Shown in pieces: positions 8,093-54,279 of a DNA stretch of 64,000 nucleotides (position 1 is its first letter; every line of letters begins with the position of its first letter). Origin of the DNA: Synergistaceae bacterium (GTDB taxonomy: Bacteria > Synergistota > Synergistia > Synergistales > Aminobacteriaceae); the NCBI GenBank assembly GCA_017450125.1, contig JAFSWZ010000010.1, positions 124,001 through 188,000 on the forward strand. The letters are read 5' to 3'. The notes beneath the pieces are model-generated. The model did no database searches and was not told where the DNA came from. It saw only the letters and a program-made list of their open reading frames with translations. A program made the translations under genes and the position numbers.

Positions 8093-9880
8093 ATGCCTGT
8101 TCCCAGCACTGAGGAAATACGCAGGCCATTGCTTGAGGCATACAAGGGAGATTCTCCCCATTATTTCCGCATCAAGGAACTGATGAGCCTGATAGCGGAG
8201 AAGTTAGGGACGCACATAGATTCGATGTCGCCCTATGAGAGGAGAGCCCTTAAGAGCAGGATAAACGATGCCCAAGCATATTTGATGACGAACAAACTCA
8301 TCTCGAACCCATTAAAGCAGACATACATGATAACCAGACGAGGGACGGAAATTTTGGAGACGACGACAGGGATTATTGAGGACGAAGTGTTTACTGTTGC
8401 AGAGCCAGCTTCAGTGAAAGCAGAGGAGGAGCTTCCGCCGCCTGATGTTGAGGTCGTTGCCGAAGAGGAAGAGACCCCAGATGTTGAGGCCGTTGCTGTA
8501 GAGGAAGAGGCAGAGCCTGCAGATGTTGAAGTCGTCGAAGAAGCACCAGAAGAGCAGCCAGCAAATGTTGAAGCTGTCGCCATAGAGGAAGAAGCCGCAG
8601 ATGTTGAGGCTGTCGACTACGAAGCAGAGGAAGAGACCCCAGACGTTGAGGCTGTCGCCGTAGAAGAGGCAGAGCCTGCAGAGACTGAGGCTGTAGCTGT
8701 AGCGGAAGAAGCCGCAGACATTGAGGCTGTTGACGACGAAGAAGAACAACAAGCCGCAGACGTTGAGACTATTGACGATGACGCAGAAGAACAGGCCGCA
8801 GACGTTGAAGTCGTTGCTGTAGAGGAAGAGGCAGAGCCTGCAGATGTTGAAGTCGTCGAAGAAGCAGCAGAAGAGCAGCCAGCAGACGTTGAGGCCGTTG
8901 CTGTAGAGGAAGAGGCAGAGCCAGCAGATGTTGAGGCTGTCGACATAGAAGAAGAGGCAGAGCCTGCAGAGAGTGATGCTGTCGCTATAGAGGAAGAAGC
9001 CGCAGACATTGAGGCCGTCGACTACGAAGCGGAAGAAGAAGCCGCAGACGTTGAGGCTGTTGACGATGACGCAGAAGAAGAAGCCGCAGACGTTGAGGTC
9101 GTTGACGAAGCGGAAGAAACCGCCGCAGACACTGAACCTGTTGACTACGAAGCAGAAGAGCAACCGTCAGACGTTGAAGCAACGTCGGACGAGGCAGAGC
9201 CTGCAGAGCAAGAGTTCACGCCCGCCAACGACGATGAAGATATCGCACCCGCCGACACTCAGGAACTCTTCCCCGACAACATTGACTTGACCGACGAACC
9301 ACAAACTTACGATTACGAGGAAAATTCAGACATGAGTACAGAAGAACTTGAAGACTATTCACACGCAGTAACACAGTCCCTGAGCATTGATGACGTTCTC
9401 GAACGCCACAACTCCGAACTTGCCGACAATGCCCTGATGCGCGCCGCAGGCCTCTCGCCGGAAATGTTCTCCATCTTCGTGATCGACCTGCTCTCAAAGA
9501 TGGGCTACAACGCCTACCAGAACGCACGCTACACGTCCGATGCCTCTGGCAACAGCCTCATTCAGGGTGTAATCCTCGACCTCAAGACCAAGAGCAACAT
9601 CTACATTCATACCAGCAAGCTCTCTCCCGGCAGGACGGTCGGACGCGCTGATGTCAAGGACTTCGCCAGCGAACTTGCGGAGCTCGGCGGAACAGGAATC
9701 TTCGCGACAACCGGCGAGTTCTCCGAGCAGGCCGCAGTCTGTGCTCAGGATGAACGCATCATGCTCATTGACGGCCAAAAGCTGGCGACGCTCATGATTA
9801 ACCACAACTTCTGCGTGAACGTAGAGAGAGTCTTTGAGGTCAAAGAACTGGACGATGACAGTTTCTCCGAGTACGAATGA
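8093..9880 (+). CDS. Mrr-like protein with acidic tandem-repeat linker and degenerate nuclease site
   Basis: A 595-residue protein in three parts. Residues 1-95 resemble the winged-helix N-terminal domain of Mrr-type restriction proteins. Residues about 105-385 are an extremely acidic, imperfect repeat built from units such as DVEAVAVEEEAEPA. Residues about 440-590 match the Mrr catalytic fold, including IYIH, TVGRADVKDFASEL, GIFATTGEFSEQA, IMLIDGQKLATLM and a final VKELDDDSF. The catalytic residues are not conserved: the Asp expected in GIDG is Gln (IQG), and the QAK triad position reads HTSK. It is therefore probably a binding protein rather than a nuclease. No methyltransferase gene is nearby. 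It overlaps rimO by four bases (ATGA). Confidence 0.82.
   Translation: MPVPSTEEIRRPLLEAYKGDSPHYFRIKELMSLIAEKLGTHIDSMSPYERRALKSRINDAQAYLMTNKLISNPLKQTYMITRRGTEILETTTGIIEDEVFTVAEPASVKAEEELPPPDVEVVAEEEETPDVEAVAVEEEAEPADVEVVEEAPEEQPANVEAVAIEEEAADVEAVDYEAEEETPDVEAVAVEEAEPAETEAVAVAEEAADIEAVDDEEEQQAADVETIDDDAEEQAADVEVVAVEEEAEPADVEVVEEAAEEQPADVEAVAVEEEAEPADVEAVDIEEEAEPAESDAVAIEEEAADIEAVDYEAEEEAADVEAVDDDAEEEAADVEVVDEAEETAADTEPVDYEAEEQPSDVEATSDEAEPAEQEFTPANDDEDIAPADTQELFPDNIDLTDEPQTYDYEENSDMSTEELEDYSHAVTQSLSIDDVLERHNSELADNALMRAAGLSPEMFSIFVIDLLSKMGYNAYQNARYTSDASGNSLIQGVILDLKTKSNIYIHTSKLSPGRTVGRADVKDFASELAELGGTGIFATTGEFSEQAAVCAQDERIMLIDGQKLATLMINHNFCVNVERVFEVKELDDDSFSEYE
8440..9210 (+). repeat. Imperfect tandem repeat encoding an acidic Glu/Asp-rich linker
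   Basis: Roughly 14-17-codon units with a core of GAY-GTT-GAG-GCY-GTY followed by runs of GAA/GAG are repeated more than fifteen times with substitutions. The repetition also produces long open frames on the opposite strand, which are artefacts. Unit boundaries vary, so this is an ancient rather than a freshly expanded array. Confidence 0.85.
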
Positions 9881-18789: not shown

Positions 18790-20424
18790 TTAATCACTCC
18801 TTATGTCTGTTGTGCAGGCCAGAAGCTCTATGCCTGTTCCGAGCATCGCCGCCTGATGCCTTAGGCTCTCACCGTGAAGCGGTATCATGCTCAGGAACAG
18901 CAGAGCCTCTATCAGCTTTACTCTCTTCATGTCCGGCGAGAAGACTTCCTTGAACAGCTCCAGCATGTCGAAATCTCTTGCCCTTCCGTGAACCTCGTAA
19001 TTCACAGAAGCATTCGCGAGGTCGTATTCTGCGCTGAACATGTCCTTGATGATGAAGTCGTATTTCCCGTCTATGCTGTGAAGTATTTTTGCGAGGTCAT
19101 AATCCGGGTCGCCGTATATGTCGTAGCTCCCGAAGCTGCCTCTCGGGTCTATCAGCTTGATGAACTGCAGGTTAGGGTCAATCATTATGTTGGTGAAGCA
19201 CAAGTCCCCGTGAATTATCGTGAACTCATCGATTCCGTAAAGAACCTCAGGGACGCACTTCCTCAGGGCATCGCATATCCCGTCAAGCGGAAGGTATCTT
19301 TGTCCGTTCACCGTGATATTCTTCGTGAAGAAGGCGGAGAAGTTCTCGTTCTTGCGCAGTGCGTCAATCCTCTGCAGAGTCTTGGCCAAGTACATATCCT
19401 CGAGCGATGAGCGTATGTCGTCTCCTCTTGCCGTGTAACGCTTGAAGTCGTCAATCACCGAGCGTATCCGGCTGAATATGTCCTTCCACTGCCTGAAGCC
19501 CATCTCTCCGTACAGGAACAGTTCATGAACAGTGTGGTACGCGTAATACTCCATCGAGGCATAAGGCCTTGTGTAGTGCGTCGAGAAGCTGAAGATTCGC
19601 GGGTGCGTGTATTCCAGATCGGACGGCAGCTTGAGATACCACTTTATCTCCTGAATGAATTTCTCCCTGTTCTCGCTGGTCTTGGTGAGGATGCCTCTCG
19701 TCCTGTCCATAGCTATATGGTTGAACTCACGCGCACTCACCTCTAGACGCGAGCTGAAGTACTTGTCGGCGTGGCCTATGTCGAACCAGCTGGAAGCCTT
19801 CACCGCTCTCATCGGGCAGGAAGCGTTGTAGTCCCTCAGTGCCTGATAGAACGTGCTGACTGACGCATCGGGCTCGACGAATGCGCGTTCAAGGCACGTC
19901 CTCAGAACGTCAGGCCTCGTTATGCGGAAGACTCCCACGAACAGCCTGCCTTTTGCGGCGGAAGTTCCGGGCTTCTTGTCGGTTATGCTCGTGAAGAGTC
20001 CGTTCTCCCCTTCCGACATCGTGAAGAACGTCCACGCTTCGGACAGGTAGTCTTCGCTGTACCAGAAGCAGTCCTCTCCGCCGCCGCTTACTTCGTCCGC
20101 CAGAATGGTATCCGCAAAGTTGATTATCGCAGTGCCGTTCACGCCTTCAAGAGACTTGTACACCGTCCAGCCCAGATCCCTGAGCTCCGGCAGAGTCTCT
20201 ACGGTTACCCTGTCTCCGTACGGCGCAAGAGCCTTGATGACCTCTCCGGCGTTCTCGCAGCACATCACCTTGATGCTTCCGCAGATGCCTGCGTATTTCT
20301 CGTAAAGGTAGTCGAACACTATGCGCTGGCTGACGGGGTAAATTACCGCAGGGATTTTGCCGAGAGTCTGAAGCGGTTCGGGAACAATCTTTGCAGAAGG
20401 AACAAGGAGCGTACAAGCAGTCAT
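18790..20424 (-). CDS. Fusion of a nucleotidyltransferase-like domain and an aminoglycoside-phosphotransferase-type kinase
   Basis: About 544 residues. The first 220 or so resemble a sugar nucleotidyltransferase fold (GTAIINFADTIL near residue 100, then WFDIGHADKYFSS near 215) but lack the usual Gly-rich GxGxR signature. The C-terminal 300 form a small-molecule kinase fold with the catalytic loop HGDLCFTNIMID near residue 420 and IDPRGSFGSYD near 440. I chose ATG 20424, with AGGAGTG upstream, over GTG 20433. It likely acts on a phosphorylated sugar for the surface glycan made by this operon. A CACAT repeat just upstream may alter its translational coupling. Confidence 0.78.
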   Translation of the reverse strand: MTACTLLVPSAKIVPEPLQTLGKIPAVIYPVSQRIVFDYLYEKYAGICGSIKVMCCENAGEVIKALAPYGDRVTVETLPELRDLGWTVYKSLEGVNGTAIINFADTILADEVSGGGEDCFWYSEDYLSEAWTFFTMSEGENGLFTSITDKKPGTSAAKGRLFVGVFRITRPDVLRTCLERAFVEPDASVSTFYQALRDYNASCPMRAVKASSWFDIGHADKYFSSRLEVSAREFNHIAMDRTRGILTKTSENREKFIQEIKWYLKLPSDLEYTHPRIFSFSTHYTRPYASMEYYAYHTVHELFLYGEMGFRQWKDIFSRIRSVIDDFKRYTARGDDIRSSLEDMYLAKTLQRIDALRKNENFSAFFTKNITVNGQRYLPLDGICDALRKCVPEVLYGIDEFTIIHGDLCFTNIMIDPNLQFIKLIDPRGSFGSYDIYGDPDYDLAKILHSIDGKYDFIIKDMFSAEYDLANASVNYEVHGRARDFDMLELFKEVFSPDMKRVKLIEALLFLSMIPLHGESLRHQAAMLGTGIELLACTTDIRSD

Positions 20425-20452: not shown

Positions 20453-21778
20453 TTATGGATGTGATGTGATGTGATGTGATGTGAAATTATACATTTTTTC
20501 TCTCATTGCGTCAACTTCTTCCGTCATATTTACAGTGAAATACTGCGCTCCGCTTCTTCTTGCGGCCTCAAGCCCCGTCTCCGAGTCCTCGAAGATTATG
20601 CACTCTTCCGGCGAAGCACCAAAATACTGCATGGCCTTGAGGTAGCCTTCAGGGTCAGGCTTTGAGTGCGCAATATCCTCATGAGCCAGCACAAGGTCAA
20701 AGAAGTTCTCCAGCCCGAAAGCCCGCAGAATGTCCTGCGTGTTCTCGCGTGAAGCTGTCGTAACCAGCGCGAGACTGCACTCTCCTCTGCACATTCCCAG
20801 AAGAGCCAGAAGCCCGGTGTTTGGCTTGGCCAGCGTGAGATATTTCCTGTACAGAGCTTTCTTTCTGCTGTGAATCATCTTCATGGCCTCGCTGCTGATG
20901 CCGGGTACGATTTCCGGGAGAAAATCCGTGTAGTGCCTGCCGTTGCAGTGCGCACGGAAATACTCATAGTCCAGCCCGCGTTCAAGAGCCTCGCTGTATG
21001 CCGCGCAGTTGACTCCTGCTGTGTCGAAGAGAGTACCGTCAAGGTCTGCAATGATGAGCCTGACGGAAGCAGGGAGATGTCCCCGCCGTAATTTCTGCCA
21101 CGCTGTCTGGTCTGCCCATTCCTCGAAGGCCTCTGCTTTGCTGCAGCTGAACACGAAATCCCTGCGCCCGACAAGGTAGGAGATTATGTGGCTGACGTAG
21201 AGCCTTCCTGCGGGATAATCCGGGTCTGACAGCCTGACGAATGCACTCACAAAATCTTCTGCGTCCCTGAAGCTGTACATTCCCGCAGAGATTACGTCAG
21301 AACGAAGGCGTTTCTCGGCGATGTCGCACACGTTGTCCTGCTCATTGAGGACAATGAAGCTCTTGCTCCTGAGGTTGGCGACGGGAATATCCGTCTGCAT
21401 GAGGTCGAGCCCGGCTATTGCGTTGCCCTCGATAGGAGAGCTCAGGGCTATTCTGCTGTGGGAGTCTTTGACGGCGATCCCGCCTGAGATTCCGGCATAA
21501 CGTATCGTCCTGCACACTGTATCCGCCGCCCCTGAAGTCTTCTCCGAAAGCACAACAACTTCTGCGCTGGGTACGCTCTGTGCTATTGCGCTGGAAACAG
21601 AGAATTTCTCCTCCATGTCCGCAGTAACAGCGTAGATTATCCGGCCGTAGCTTTCCGGGAATATCCCTGACAGCAACTTTGCGGCAAGAATCGTTCCGTC
21701 CTCAGGATGCCTGTTCAGGATCAGAGGCAGGCCGTCAATGCGTTCACCGCCTGCACAGGGAATTATCAGCGTCTTCAT
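20453..21778 (-). CDS. Fusion of a nucleotidyltransferase-like domain and a HAD phosphatase (repeat at 3' end)
   Basis: A 441-residue protein. Residues 1-215 look like a degenerate sugar nucleotidyltransferase (LIIPCAGGERIDGLPL at the start and KDSHSRI where a DxD metal site might be). Residues about 235-430 are a HAD phosphatase of the beta-phosphoglucomutase-like type with IADLDGTLFDTAG, VTTASREN, KPDPEGYLKA and IFEDSETGLEAA. The last ten codons lie in five CACAT units (20459-20483). It starts 35 bases inside the kinase gene upstream. In the present repeat state it stops 29 bases before the next ATG. With one unit fewer it would end in an ATGA overlap with that ATG. Confidence 0.78.
   Translation of the reverse strand: MKTLIIPCAGGERIDGLPLILNRHPEDGTILAAKLLSGIFPESYGRIIYAVTADMEEKFSVSSAIAQSVPSAEVVVLSEKTSGAADTVCRTIRYAGISGGIAVKDSHSRIALSSPIEGNAIAGLDLMQTDIPVANLRSKSFIVLNEQDNVCDIAEKRLRSDVISAGMYSFRDAEDFVSAFVRLSDPDYPAGRLYVSHIISYLVGRRDFVFSCSKAEAFEEWADQTAWQKLRRGHLPASVRLIIADLDGTLFDTAGVNCAAYSEALERGLDYEYFRAHCNGRHYTDFLPEIVPGISSEAMKMIHSRKKALYRKYLTLAKPNTGLLALLGMCRGECSLALVTTASRENTQDILRAFGLENFFDLVLAHEDIAHSKPDPEGYLKAMQYFGASPEECIIFEDSETGLEAARRSGAQYFTVNMTEEVDAMREKMYNFTSHHITSHP
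20459..20483 (-). repeat. Pentanucleotide repeat, five CACAT units (ATGTG on plus strand)
   Basis: Five perfect tandem copies inside the last codons of the nucleotidyltransferase-HAD fusion gene. Five-base units shift the frame when copy number changes, so this is a candidate slipped-strand locus. Confidence 0.93.
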
Positions 21779-23332: not shown

Positions 23333-24366
23333 CTTTGCTCCATCCCCGACAAAAGACTGCATGTGTACTCAATCACTGCTGCCAGCCCCTCCTCCATCGA
23401 TACGCGAGGACTCCAGCCGTATTTTTCGCGGGCATGAGTGTTGTCGCAGAGCGAATACTTGTTGATTTCGTGGTGCAGTATCTCATCCTTGATCCTGTAT
23501 CTGCCCTCATAGAGAGCGGGGTACTTCTCCCAATAGTGCCTGTCATCTGCATAAGTTATGCCCCCCCCCCCGTACGCAGTTTTACGCACAAGTCTGTAGG
23601 CGATGCTGAACATCTCATTAACGGAGTAATTCACGCCGGAAGACGCGTTTACGCAGTCGAAGCCCCTGCATTCACGCACAGCCCAAGCTAAATCCGTGAG
23701 GTCATCAACATACACGTAATCCCTGCGCTGGTTGCCGTCGCTGTGAAACACCGGCGTACGGTTGTAGTACAGCTCGCGTATCATGTAGGCGACAAAGGGA
23801 GGCTGGGTTCTCAGGCAGTCGATGTGCGGGCCGTATACGTTCGAGAAGCGCAGGCACACTATATTCATCCCATAGGTGTCGCAGAAGGACTGCGCAAAAC
23901 GTTCGGCACAATATTTTGTGTTCGGGTAAATCAATGTAGGGAGCACAGAGAAGCCTGCTTCTGTTACGGGGAATCTGGTTTCGTTCTCGTAGATGGCATT
24001 GGTGCTTGCCTGAATGATTGTCCTGACACCGTATTTGCGGGCTGCCTCGCAGATGTTCACGAAGCCGGAGACATTTACGCTTATCGCTTCGGCAGGGTCT
24101 GCCTGGCAGTCAGGAAGCGGGGCAATCCCTGCGATGTTGTAGGCGTAATCGATGTCGTTGTCGCGGAAAATCGACGCTATGCCTTCTTTGTCGCGAATAT
24201 CCATCCTGATGATCTCCGGCGTGAAATCGTGATCTGGGAAAATCAGATTGTCAGGTTTGCCGTAGGAGAAGTTGTCGACAAGCACCAGACTGATGCCGGT
24301 CTTCCAGAGTTTGTACGCCAGCTGTGAACCGATGAAGCCGGCCGCGCCGGTTATGAGAGCCTTCAT
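23329..24366 (-). CDS. NAD-dependent epimerase/dehydratase containing an 11-G tract
   Basis: A 345-residue extended short-chain dehydrogenase with TGAAGFIGSQLAY (residues 6-18), IIQASTNAIYE near 125 and the active-site pair in YPNTKYCAE near 151. RRDYVYVDDLTDLAWAV near 220 is also family-typical. It probably epimerises or oxidises/reduces a nucleotide sugar. Codons for four consecutive glycines near residue 270 are an uninterrupted run of 11 G (23561-23571 as C on the plus strand). In this sequence the frame is open (ON); gain or loss of one G would truncate it. ATGA overlaps join it to both neighbours. Confidence 0.9.
   Translation of the reverse strand: MKALITGAAGFIGSQLAYKLWKTGISLVLVDNFSYGKPDNLIFPDHDFTPEIIRMDIRDKEGIASIFRDNDIDYAYNIAGIAPLPDCQADPAEAISVNVSGFVNICEAARKYGVRTIIQASTNAIYENETRFPVTEAGFSVLPTLIYPNTKYCAERFAQSFCDTYGMNIVCLRFSNVYGPHIDCLRTQPPFVAYMIRELYYNRTPVFHSDGNQRRDYVYVDDLTDLAWAVRECRGFDCVNASSGVNYSVNEMFSIAYRLVRKTAYGGGGITYADDRHYWEKYPALYEGRYRIKDEILHHEINKYSLCDNTHAREKYGWSPRVSMEEGLAAVIEYTCSLLSGMEQR
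23561..23571 (-). repeat. Homopolymeric 11-G tract in the epimerase coding sequence
   Basis: Eleven consecutive C on the plus strand, the longest homopolymer I saw in the window, in the middle of a conserved coding region. Such tracts are classic slipped-strand contingency sites in Campylobacter, Helicobacter and Neisseria. Confidence 0.95.
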
Positions 24367-25436
24367 GCTGTCTCACCTGCCTGCCTCACCGTGTCGATGA
24401 TGTACCTTGCGACGACTTCAGGTGCCCACTTTCTGTTGAAGCAGTCGACGATTTTTGCCGGGTCAGTCTCGGGAAGGGACATCACGTCGCGTTCGAACTG
24501 TGCCCAGTCTACATCCTCCATCCGTTCGTAGCCCATCTTGACAGTCTCGAAGACCTCGCACTCGTCGAAGGGCAGATACCACCTCACGACGAGCTTGTCG
24601 GTAACTATCGCTGTGCCGACCATGAAGCTCTCTATGAACCTGCTGGGGATGCTCATCCTGTAGCCGGAGACGTTGAAGTTGTACTGGAAGCTGGAGATGT
24701 AACGGCAGAAATCCTTTAGAGGCACGATGAGTTCTGCGTTTGTCCTAATTCCGCTGTCTGCGTTCGAAGTGCTGATGATTCTTGCGTCAGCTTCAGCTCC
24801 TATGCCGGAGAGGTATTCTGCAATTCTTGCGCGCTTCTCGTTAGGGTGCGAGACCTGTTCCGCGTAATAACCCATTATGTCGCGCTCCCAATCATAATCA
24901 GGATGAGTTACATTCTTTTCTGGAGCAGGCCCCTGCGCGTTGCCGAAGTAGCACATGAACTTTTTGGACTTTCTGAGATTCCGGCCTTGCAGGTAATTGC
25001 TGTAACCTCCTTTGAGGAGAGCATAGCTCATTCCCCGCGAAAGAGAGCGCGGCCCCTGCATCAGCGGGAATATCTTGCGGATGTACTGCCCTAAATCTGC
25101 TATAAAGCATCTTTCGCCTCTGTCTGTAAGTCTCTTCAGGGAATTGTCAACGTGTTTATGATCTGACCACGGAATCCTTATGCTGTCGGTTAATGCGAAG
25201 GAGTCTTCATCAAGGATGGAAGGGCAGTTGACCTTGAAGTATGCATCGCACGTATTCAGCTTCTCTTCATCAAACAGGTAAGGCGCGTCAGCACTGTCAA
25301 CGCTGAAAGTTTTTCTGCTGCCGTCCTCAAAGAGGATGTACCCGTCCATGTTGTAGCTGTCAGGTATAAATATCTTGCGCAGCTTGTTTATGCCTCTTAC
25401 AGGAATTGAGAACAGAAGCCTGTTCATCAGAGGCAT
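24363..25436 (-). CDS. Putative glycosyltransferase (exostosin-like), apparently phase-OFF at its 5' end
   Basis: From the first in-frame ATG at 25436 the frame gives 357 residues. The C-terminal part has NFNVSGYRMSIPSRFIE and FMVGTAIVTDKL, resembling exostosin-like or GT-B glycosyltransferases. The frame stays open to 25610 and that extra part looks genuinely coding: it reads KPKVVITSLGRVNYFEWF, a plausible glycosyltransferase N-terminus. It contains no ATG, GTG or TTG before a TGA at 25611-25613, because the five CACAG units at 25581-25605 put it out of frame with two upstream ATG codons (25624 and 25614). A minus-strand TATAAT at 25671-25676 supports transcription from further upstream. 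First gene of the operon. Confidence 0.75.
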   Translation of the reverse strand: MPLMNRLLFSIPVRGINKLRKIFIPDSYNMDGYILFEDGSRKTFSVDSADAPYLFDEEKLNTCDAYFKVNCPSILDEDSFALTDSIRIPWSDHKHVDNSLKRLTDRGERCFIADLGQYIRKIFPLMQGPRSLSRGMSYALLKGGYSNYLQGRNLRKSKKFMCYFGNAQGPAPEKNVTHPDYDWERDIMGYYAEQVSHPNEKRARIAEYLSGIGAEADARIISTSNADSGIRTNAELIVPLKDFCRYISSFQYNFNVSGYRMSIPSRFIESFMVGTAIVTDKLVVRWYLPFDECEVFETVKMGYERMEDVDWAQFERDVMSLPETDPAKIVDCFNRKWAPEVVARYIIDTVRQAGETA

Positions 25437-25580
25437 ATCAAATCCAAGCGATATTTCTCCGGCTTCTTGAAGCTGATAGAGCCCCAGCAGAAACCACTCG
25501 AAGTAATTTACTCTGCCGAGTGATGTAATAACTACTTTCGGTTTGCGGGATTTTGCGGTAGAATTTAGGCGAGTCTCAGG

Positions 25581-25605
25581 CTGTGCTGTGCTGTGCTGTG
25601 CTGTG
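25581..25605 (-). repeat. Pentanucleotide repeat, five CACAG units (CTGTG on plus strand)
   Basis: Five perfect tandem units within the 5' coding region of the glycosyltransferase gene, between the candidate start codons and the conserved N-terminus. Four or seven units would join ATG 25624 to the gene frame; three or six would join ATG 25614; five joins neither. Confidence 0.95.
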
Positions 25606-25639
25606 AGGAATCATACAAGCTCATAGCTTACACGTCAAG

Positions 25640-25676
25640 CTCCTTTCATCAACTTTCTAGGATTTGTGAAATTATA
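25640..25676 (-). promoter_or_regulatory. Promoter and ribosome binding site of the phase-variable glycan operon
   Basis: A perfect -10 TATAAT lies at 25676-25671 on the minus strand; the -35 region is weak. AAAGGAG follows at 25646-25640, upstream of the candidate starts at 25624 and 25614. The distance from AAAGGAG to ATG 25624 is longer than usual (about 15 bases), so the true start is not certain. Confidence 0.55.
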
Positions 25677-52053: not shown

Positions 52054-53106
52054 ATGCACATATTATCAGTCGAAACAGTATCGCTTGACGACGACGCACT
52101 TGTTATCCTCGACCAGACAAAGCTCCCTAACAGCATCGAGATACTTCACCTCACGACACAGCCGGAAATCTGGCGGGCAATCCGTACCCTCCAGGTCAGA
52201 GGAGCACCGGCCATCGGAATAGCGGCGGCATTCGGCGTGTACCTTGCGGCGAGGGACATTCACGCGGAGGACTACATGTCGTTCTTCGTGCAGTTCCACG
52301 AGGCAAAGGAGTACCTGAACTCCGCGCGTCCGACGGCAGTAAATCTCTCGTGGGCACTTAACCGAATGGAGAAGGTTGTTACGGACAACGAAGGCAGGAG
52401 CATTGAAGGGATAGTTGAACTTCTGCGGAGGGAAGCCATCGCAATCAAGGCAGAGGACACGGAGATGTGCAGGAAGATCGGCGAATGGGGGCTGACACTC
52501 ATTCACGACGGCGACGGAATACTGACCCACTGCAACGCCGGGCAGTTAGCGACCTCGAAATACGGGACAGCTTTAGCCCCGATACATCTCGGCCGTGAAA
52601 GAGGAATGAATTTCCGTGTGTACTGCGACGAGACGAGGCCTCTGCTTCAGGGCGCGCGGCTCTCGACGTTCGAGCTTCTGGCTGACGGCGTGGACACCAC
52701 ATTAATCTGCGACAACATGGCTTCGCAGGTCATGAAGAACGGCTGGATTGATGCTGTGTTTGTGGGGTGCGACAGAGTAGCGGCGAACGGGGACGCGTGC
52801 AACAAAATCGGCACGTCAGGCGTGGCAATTCTCGCGAAACATTACGGGATACCGTTCTACGTTCTCGGGCCGACATCGACAATCGACATGAGCATTTCGA
52901 CGGGAGCAGACATCGTGATAGAAGAGCGTCCGGCTGAAGAGGTTACGGAGATGTGGTACAGCCGGAGGATGGCACCTGAGGGCGTGAAGGTCTACAACCC
53001 TGCGTTCGACGTAACAGACCATGCACTGATTACGGGAATCGTTACGGAGCACGGGATTGCTTGGCCGCCGTATACTGAGAGCCTGAAAGAGCTCTTCGCG
53101 AACTAG
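52054..53106 (+). CDS. mtnA: S-methyl-5-thioribose-1-phosphate isomerase
   Basis: A 350-residue member of the eIF2B-like sugar phosphate isomerase family with [18 protein letters not shown] near residue 48, [18 protein letters not shown] near 158 (catalytic Cys), [18 protein letters not shown] near 190 and [17 protein letters not shown] near 238. It isomerises methylthioribose-1-phosphate in methionine salvage; some members act on related deoxysugar phosphates. No other salvage genes are nearby. The end overlaps the convergent gene by four bases. Confidence 0.93.
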
Positions 53107-54020
53107 TCCGGCGCAAAAAATTCGCGCTGAGCTCGGGGTGTCCTGTCGAGATTCTTCATGTAGGCATCATAGTCTTTCGCTATGTGCCCTATGTCCCAAG
53201 CCATATATCCCATGTCGGTCAGGTCTGCGGCCATTGCAGTTGCTGTAGGTCCGAGTATCAGGCATATAAGCGTGTCCTTGCTGACGTTGCTGGAGATGTC
53301 CCGCAGTATCGAGTCGTATGCGCCGAATGCATGTTTTGACGGAGCGTCGATGATGACTTTGCTGGCGGCGTGCTCGAAGATGTCATAATCCAGTTTGGCG
53401 AGGACGCTTTTTCCTGTAACAAGGGCTATCTTCCTGCCCTCAAAGAGCTTCTTCTTCCTGCGTACAAAGTCAGCATACGCATCGTTATCCGCAAAACGGA
53501 AGAAGCCGCACAGACATGTAGCATCAAGATAAGTTGTTTCGGGATTGGCGTGCTCCATGAAGAATCTTCGCAGCTGCGTATCCATCTTGTAATGGAACGC
53601 TACTCCTTCTTCCGTGATGTTCTGAAGCCGTACGGAATGGAAATAAAGCCCGTTAATTCCCACGTACATATCATCACGCTTGTCCTGCAGAACCCGGTAC
53701 ATTTTCTCCGAAAGCGCTGGGTCATACTTCTGGAACCGTATATCACGACCCTGCATTATGGCAACTTCACCGTCTCCGAACCGTGCGAAGCTCTTGGGCT
53801 GTTCTTCGAGGCGGCTCAAGCTGTGGTGCATGTCCAGAATCTCGGGAACGTGCGGCATAACCAGTTCGCGCAGTTCGTCCAGCTGAAACAGGCAGTCTTC
53901 AAGTATCTCGTCTTTCAGGGTTACTTGAATGTCATTCTTGATGAGAAACTTAATGTTGTTGAGGAATCTTTCTGTGTCCCAGACGCGGAAAAGTGTACGT
54001 ACCTTGCTGAGTATTCCCAT
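53103..54020 (-). CDS. GT-D fold glycosyltransferase (DUF1792 type)
   Basis: A 305-residue protein with a helical N-terminal region (1-95) and a GT-D glycosyltransferase domain starting [27 protein letters not shown] near residue 98, then [23 protein letters not shown] and [14 protein letters not shown]. The DxE motif in FGDGE is the family's metal-binding site. Relatives glycosylate serine-rich adhesins or glycans. An in-frame TGA lies six bases before the ATG, fixing the start region. Confidence 0.83.
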
Positions 54021-54279
54021 CTGTCAGTCCCTGCCTTTCACGGAAGCAGACAGGACACGAGCCTGACAGGGTGATTTTAGAGCAAAAGAGTCAACGCCGA
54101 ACGCCGAACGCCGAATTTTACACGACCTTTCATTGAGTGTCAATCCTTTCACTAATACTATTGCCGCAGCTTCGAACTGCTACATTGTAACATGGCGCGG
54201 GCGAAAATTTTTTGTGCCTCCTGAAATTGTTTGAGTGTATCATATACAGATTATTTTGCTCAGGAGGAAGTATCACATC
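54021..54279. promoter_or_regulatory. Intergenic region with a heptamer repeat and the flavoprotein promoter
   Basis: Three copies of AACGCCG (54093-54113) lie about 75 bases upstream of the GT-D gene. On the plus strand TTGAGT (54133-54138), 17 bases and TACTAT (54156-54161) form a promoter for the flavoprotein gene, leaving a leader of about 110 bases that ends in CAGGAGGAAG. No small gene is evident. Confidence 0.55.
54093..54113. repeat. Heptanucleotide repeat, three AACGCCG units
   Basis: Three perfect tandem heptamers in the intergenic region between two divergent genes. Copy-number change would alter promoter spacing, not a reading frame. Confidence 0.85.

Follow-up and report, generated by a model that had tools for sequence, protein, structure and literature searches.

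A CACAG array in a Synergistaceae glycan locus is probably one of a genus-wide family of frame-switching leader cassettes

Background

Contingency genes controlled by simple sequence repeats (SSRs) are known from Haemophilus influenzae (lic, mod), Neisseria and Campylobacter, where a non-triplet array lies between the start codon and the body of the gene, the targets are surface-glycan genes, and OFF and ON alleles are both present. The cassettes described here are alike in these respects, and one of their two forms, in which the array is fused to the gene behind it, is ordinary in principle, being a non-triplet array between start and body. SSR contingency genes mainly use homopolymers or tetranucleotides, whereas our cassettes carry units of 5 or 7 nt (one of 8 nt). 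Also unlike in those genes, nearly all arrays here directly follow a conserved promoter-like pair, and dozens of unrelated genes make use of a single common cassette.

In Streptococcus gallolyticus, pil1 and pil3 carry a 5-nt GCAGA repeat in a leader open reading frame (ORF) with its own Shine-Dalgarno (SD) sequence and ATG; at pil1, the number of units shifts the leader stop and thereby sets the expression of the next genes, acting through an intrinsic terminator (PMC3894217). In contrast to pil1, most of our cassettes put the leader stop at the start codon of the next gene, and instead of a pilus switch they make up a genus-wide repertoire. The stop-start overlap of leader and gene resembles ordinary bacterial translational coupling (ATGA or TAATG overlap), except that the coupled frame is here one of three and is set by an apparently unstable array. 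A review of phase variation (PMC11868660) does not contain leader-peptide switches, penta- or heptanucleotide arrays or Synergistota by those words, and a literature search, incomplete in its coverage, returned no paper on phase variation by such repeats in Synergistota.

The CACAG array and its gene

An initial annotation of the window (the whole 64,000-nucleotide stretch of Synergistaceae DNA analysed here) proposed that five perfect CACAG units hold a glycosyltransferase gene in a phase-OFF state. The units were confirmed at 25605-25581 on the minus strand, with one extra matching base at 25580, and Tandem Repeats Finder agrees (Table 1, cassette A). The surrounding elements, i.e., TATAAT, AAAGGAG, the ATG codons at 25624 and 25614 and a TGA at 25613-25611, were all verified on the same strand. 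As claimed, the gene frame, to which the ATG at 25436 belongs, has no stop as far upstream as 25610, and the first in-frame ATG, GTG or TTG codons past the array are those at 25436 and 25427. Reading from ATG 25624 gives MSLYDSSQHSTAQHSLRLA and then a stop, in a frame that differs from that of the gene, and the allele with five units therefore reads OFF. Of the two start codons proposed, 25624 is favored by its position in the family, whereas 25614 falls inside the TATGAT box. Both lie between or within TTGACG and TATGAT, a 17-nt-spaced pair common to nearly every sister cassette. The upstream TATAAT remains plausible as a promoter (P1), but it is this embedded promoter-like pair that abuts the array.

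The prediction that homologues would align upstream of the methionine at 25436 was borne out by a relative in another genome (G029, locus L016), whose homology starts at residue 23 of the extended frame, 36 residues before the first in-frame methionine. A perfect non-triplet array between start codon and gene body, a body without an independent start and homology reaching upstream of the first in-frame start together place cassette A in the fused form described below. The gene is apparently the first of an operon that also encodes an epimerase, a nucleotidyltransferase, an APH-type kinase and HAD proteins. Its identity as a glycosyltransferase was not confirmed, its basis being this operon and a sub-threshold Pfam match to Glyco_trans_1_2 (E 0.16). 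In a phylum-wide search with the window protein, the sole match was the G029 copy, which is broken in several places and matches the record CAJOES010000050.1 (uncultured Synergistales, red deer), apparently the same assembly as G029. A search for a solved structural relative of the protein found none, and its alignment-free structure model was unusable (mean pLDDT 35.9).

Table 1. Features of the three cassettes in the window
Feature	Coordinates	Strand	Remarks
Cassette A, P1-like -10 box TATAAT	25671..25676	-	exact TATAAT enriched in sister cassettes
Cassette A, SD-like AAAGGAG	25640..25646	-	conserved among sister cassettes
Cassette A, embedded -35-like box TTGACG	25633..25638	-	
Cassette A, predicted start codon ATG	25622..25624	-	14 nt from start of -35-like box, the commonest family position
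Cassette A, embedded -10-like box TATGAT	25610..25615	-	17-nt spacer
Cassette A, CACAG array, 5.2 copies	25580..25605	-	Tandem Repeats Finder, 100% match
Cassette A, gene body fused behind array, without own start	24363..25579	-	about 404 codons; weak glycosyltransferase signal
Cassette B, embedded -35-like box TTGACG	20509..20514	-	
Cassette B, in-frame ATG	20504..20506	-	leader is 3' end of HAD gene
Cassette B, embedded -10-like box TATAAT	20486..20491	-	
Cassette B, CACAT array, 5.4 copies	20458..20484	-	Tandem Repeats Finder
Cassette B, target	18790..20424	-	weak APH-domain match
Cassette C, embedded -35-like box TTGACA	54138..54143	-	
Cassette C, leader ATG	54131..54133	-	
Cassette C, embedded -10-like box TAAAAT	54115..54120	-	
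Cassette C, 7-nt array TTCGGCG, 3.3 copies	54093..54115	-	Tandem Repeats Finder
Cassette C, target, GT-D fold glycosyltransferase	53103..54020	-	Pfam E 8.7e-48

A cassette family within one genus

The genus was represented by 43 species genomes, one genome per species. A search for four CACAN units gave matches in 25 of the 43, with CACAG, CACAT, CACAC and CACAA as units in up to 14 copies, and the flanks carried, almost everywhere, AAAGGAG, TTGACA, 17 nt and TATAAT with the array within a few bases. Searching for the motif only yielded 64 sites in 26 of the 43 genomes (reversed control, 0), many of them bearing 7-nt arrays (CGCACAT, CGCGTGT, CGCCTAT and others). Across the 19 other genera of the family the motif matched twice, both times in one genome, and the site examined there had no array. 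An array followed the motif at 23 of 26 genus sites versus none of 67 sites in viral contigs, where matches to the motif are chance occurrences and served as control.

In the sampled genus sequence, part of which was chosen because it contained such arrays or the motif, we counted about 100 short perfect tandem arrays (period 4-11); nearly all have period 5 or 7 and stand behind the same motif, so the CACAG array is no chance feature. We catalogued 86 cassettes with the full motif, which share the order P1-like TATAAT, AAAGGAG, TTGACA-N17-TATAAT containing an ATG, perfect 5- or 7-nt array, and gene. Their arrays have period 5 (47 cassettes), period 7 (38) or period 8 (1), and none has period 6 or 9. 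Because the loci were partly gathered by the motif, motif statistics are inflated for that subset; among the 64 arrays that were gathered without it (the array-first subset), the pattern is unchanged. On comparison of these sequences, the CACAG array is one member of a family of near-identical putative switches at dozens of sites in one Synergistota genus. Cassette anatomy and frame relations, like the target families and the copy-number differences between orthologues reported below, were observed directly in the assemblies.

Two other candidates for the nature of the cassette were set aside. A known RNA element was rejected because an Rfam search returned tRNA and RNase P only, and the patchy similarity outside the cassette core does not suggest a mobile element with fixed ends.

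Fused and coupled reading frames

We assign a probability of about 0.8 to the array being the switch of a phase-variable leader cassette; we infer that switching takes place, that the leader is translated and that expression is affected. The mRNA would begin at the upstream promoter P1, ribosomes would initiate at the cassette ATG and translate through the array, and slipped-strand mispairing would gain or lose whole 5- or 7-nt units, so that every single-unit change would shift the frame. In the fused form (cassette A), the startless gene would be made only if the unit number aligns its frame with the leader ATG. In the coupled form (cassettes B and C), one frame would run through the leader and end at the start of the next gene, with translation handed on, and the other two would meet stops soon past the array.

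In 78 of the 86 cassettes, the segment that separates the -35-like box from the array includes an ATG (36.6 expected from shuffling). Reading from the first ATG meets no stop before the end of the array in 79 of 81 cases (51.6 expected, P about 1e-13; this P value and the one below treat loci as independent and are too small, as some loci are related by descent). The cassette arrays are thus probably coding. The repeat units are themselves free of stops in 25 of 25 cases, an observation set aside as coding evidence because it is too weak (22.7 expected).

The fused form comprises 33 cassettes, in which one post-array frame runs straight into a long gene body; only 2 of these genes have a start with an SD match of at least 5 within the first in-frame starts. 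Inspection by eye found a WbsX-type glycosyltransferase (L099) and a radical-SAM-like protein (L125) in frame with the cassette ATG. In the coupled form, the downstream gene has its own SD and start. In 31 of 37 leaders, exactly one of the three frames terminates no more than 8 nt from this start (P about 4e-8, against a null of 39-40% from matched controls upstream of other genes and from shuffled leaders), and six class-1 leaders have no coupled frame. Frames other than the coupled one mostly reach a stop a few codons on. The initial placement of the repeat in the gene's own N-terminus suits the window gene, but many sister cassettes apparently act via a leader ORF. The proposal that the repeat switches the frame, and that the assembled allele is OFF, draws strong support from this comparative anatomy, i.e., from the conserved SD and ATG, the frame open through the array, the startless bodies, the nearly always frame-shifting unit lengths and the share of ON alleles of about one third.

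The embedded promoter-like pair

The -35 and -10 boxes next to the array are near consensus and have a 17-nt spacer in 69 of the 86 cassettes, with the array 0-4 nt away in most. In the array-first set, 51 of 64 score at least 10/12 against TTGACA/TATAAT (null 1.3%). TTGA is retained in about 54 of the 55 best array-first cassettes, and the second box varies as a -10 element typically does. For a promoter, the -35-like box shows unusually little variation, and it is retained even inside coding sequence. These boxes, their spacing and the constancy of TTGA favor a pure promoter or 5'UTR reading, in which the frame does not matter and transcripts exclude the upstream ATG; repeats in promoters or 5'UTRs do tune expression in other bacteria, as at uspA2 in Moraxella and HMW in Haemophilus. 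This reading, however, leaves unexplained the conserved SD and ATG, the frame kept open through the array, the startless bodies, the single coupled frame and the absence of periods divisible by three. The statistics on the ATG, the open frame and the coupling demote it, and we consider it unlikely.

Against the leader-cassette reading, the embedded pair overlies the leader start codon, and transcripts from it would lack the ATG. An exact TATAAT occurs upstream of the SD in 26 of 55 sister cassettes, versus 8.6% in shuffles, and the leader mRNA probably originates from this upstream box. The commonest SD-to-ATG spacing is 15-16 nt compared with the 7-12 nt usual in the genus, so translation of the leader may be weak or may start differently. 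The embedded pair may act as a second promoter or as a pause site, or it may drive the instability of the array. A bolder and rather doubtful version is that the cassette is a built-in hypermutation device, with a promoter set over the start codon and RNA polymerase repeatedly opening the DNA at the array; such opening would raise slippage, and translation from the upstream promoter would read out the frame. How the arrays stay unstable is a testable question raised by the conserved pair that touches them.

Allele states and variation in unit number

It is very unlikely that translation of the fused genes begins past the array, at a non-standard or overlooked codon, and is constitutive, with the array a neutral passenger. 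A few fused genes (L050, L061, L070 and L093) do have an in-frame TTG just past the array as a possible start, and in one four-member target family such a TTG is conserved. But in the window gene, as in several others, dozens of codons pass without an ATG, GTG or TTG, the homology of the window gene begins well ahead of its first in-frame methionine, and the tie of the array to one motif and to frame-shifting periods does not look neutral.

Alleles were scored by their first open ATG. Of the 60 that could be scored, 18 (about 30%) are ON, near the share of one third that would arise if the unit number were unconstrained by frame. That the window gene is a decaying pseudogene, or its unit number an assembly error, is hardly credible: its only detected relative is a broken gene, but its own frame runs on for about 404 codons without any further lesion, and OFF alleles occur over the 60 loci at the rate expected of frame-random arrays.

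Unit number differs between orthologous loci, with 5.6 versus 4.6 units at a CACAT locus in sister species, 7.4 versus 4.6 at a GCCTTGT locus, likewise between sister species, and 6.7 versus 3.7 and 8.7 versus 2.7 at further loci. The unit sequence also differs between some orthologues (L114 versus L123). Of 55 arrays, 11 are separated from a contig end by no more than a few bases, and in two genomes (G006 and G025) the promoter-side and gene-side halves, with the same unit, stand at the ends of separate contigs. This is consistent with mixed lengths in the sampled populations, but other assembly limits could produce the same pattern.

Two further sets of loci are of note. In G028, two paralogous loci upstream of MBOAT genes (L145 and L147) are 95% identical and have 1 versus 5.4 copies of TGCCTCGT, possibly representing the birth of an array; this is the only 8-nt array seen. 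At two loci with 7-nt AGGAGTC arrays (L055 and L059), the cassette ATGs before the acyltransferase array hit stops in G008, where the orthologue in G006 is open, and the G008 cassette is possibly a disabled switch.

Other cassettes in the window and source genome

All three cassettes of the window read OFF (Table 1). At least two further cassettes are present in the same genome (C33:81840 and C34:98501); the two found there besides those of the window (L046; L111/C34) read as ON.

The SD of cassette B is weak (GGAAG). One of its three frames ends at TGA 20423-20421, which overlaps the target ATG, and the assembled allele stops at TAA 20455-20453 instead of at this coupled TGA. Its array lies within the last codons of a HAD-domain gene (20453-21778), so unit number would alter the HAD C-terminus as well as coupling to the next gene. 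In cassette C, one frame ends in TGA 54026-54024, 6 nt ahead of the GT-D ATG (start 54020, by eye), and the assembled frame meets a stop 4 codons past the array.

Like pil1, cassettes B and C carry the repeat inside a leader ORF that has an SD and an ATG of its own, and in the coupled form the choice of frame moves the leader stop relative to the gene. No intrinsic terminator was called between leader and gene in either B or C, and in the family terminator-like hairpins with T-runs between array and gene were seen in three class-1 leaders only (L072, L078 and L098).

Targets and significance

Judging from domain matches, the cassette targets are mostly surface-glycan genes. The 71 target proteins include, by Pfam, with which NCBIfam agrees, 14 MBOAT acyltransferases, 11 bacterial sugar transferases (sugar phosphotransferases), 6 polysaccharide pyruvyl transferases and 6 nitroreductase-like proteins. 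Glycosyltransferases of the GT2, GT4, GT10, GT11, GT-D and WbsX families are also among them, as are acyltransferase 3, UbiA and surface proteins bearing Ig or LRR domains. The six nitroreductase-fold targets are probably the cluster of L114, L123, L139, L142 and similar loci.

Given many cassettes in the genus, mainly on surface-glycan genes, the cells of a population should differ in surface chemistry. If so, the poorly studied Synergistota would carry genus-wide modular frame switches on such genes, built on a common leader cassette that drives unrelated genes and comparable in concept to the Haemophilus or Campylobacter phasomes. Pil1, the sole leader-repeat switch that we found described, would thereby be extended to a multi-locus system that apparently uses translational coupling. 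For metagenomic reads, the unit number at each locus offers an obvious quantity to measure.

A long imperfect repeat of about 42 nt, detected by the tandem repeat finder at 8462-9180 of the window, is apparently Glu/Ala-rich coding sequence and is unrelated to the cassettes.
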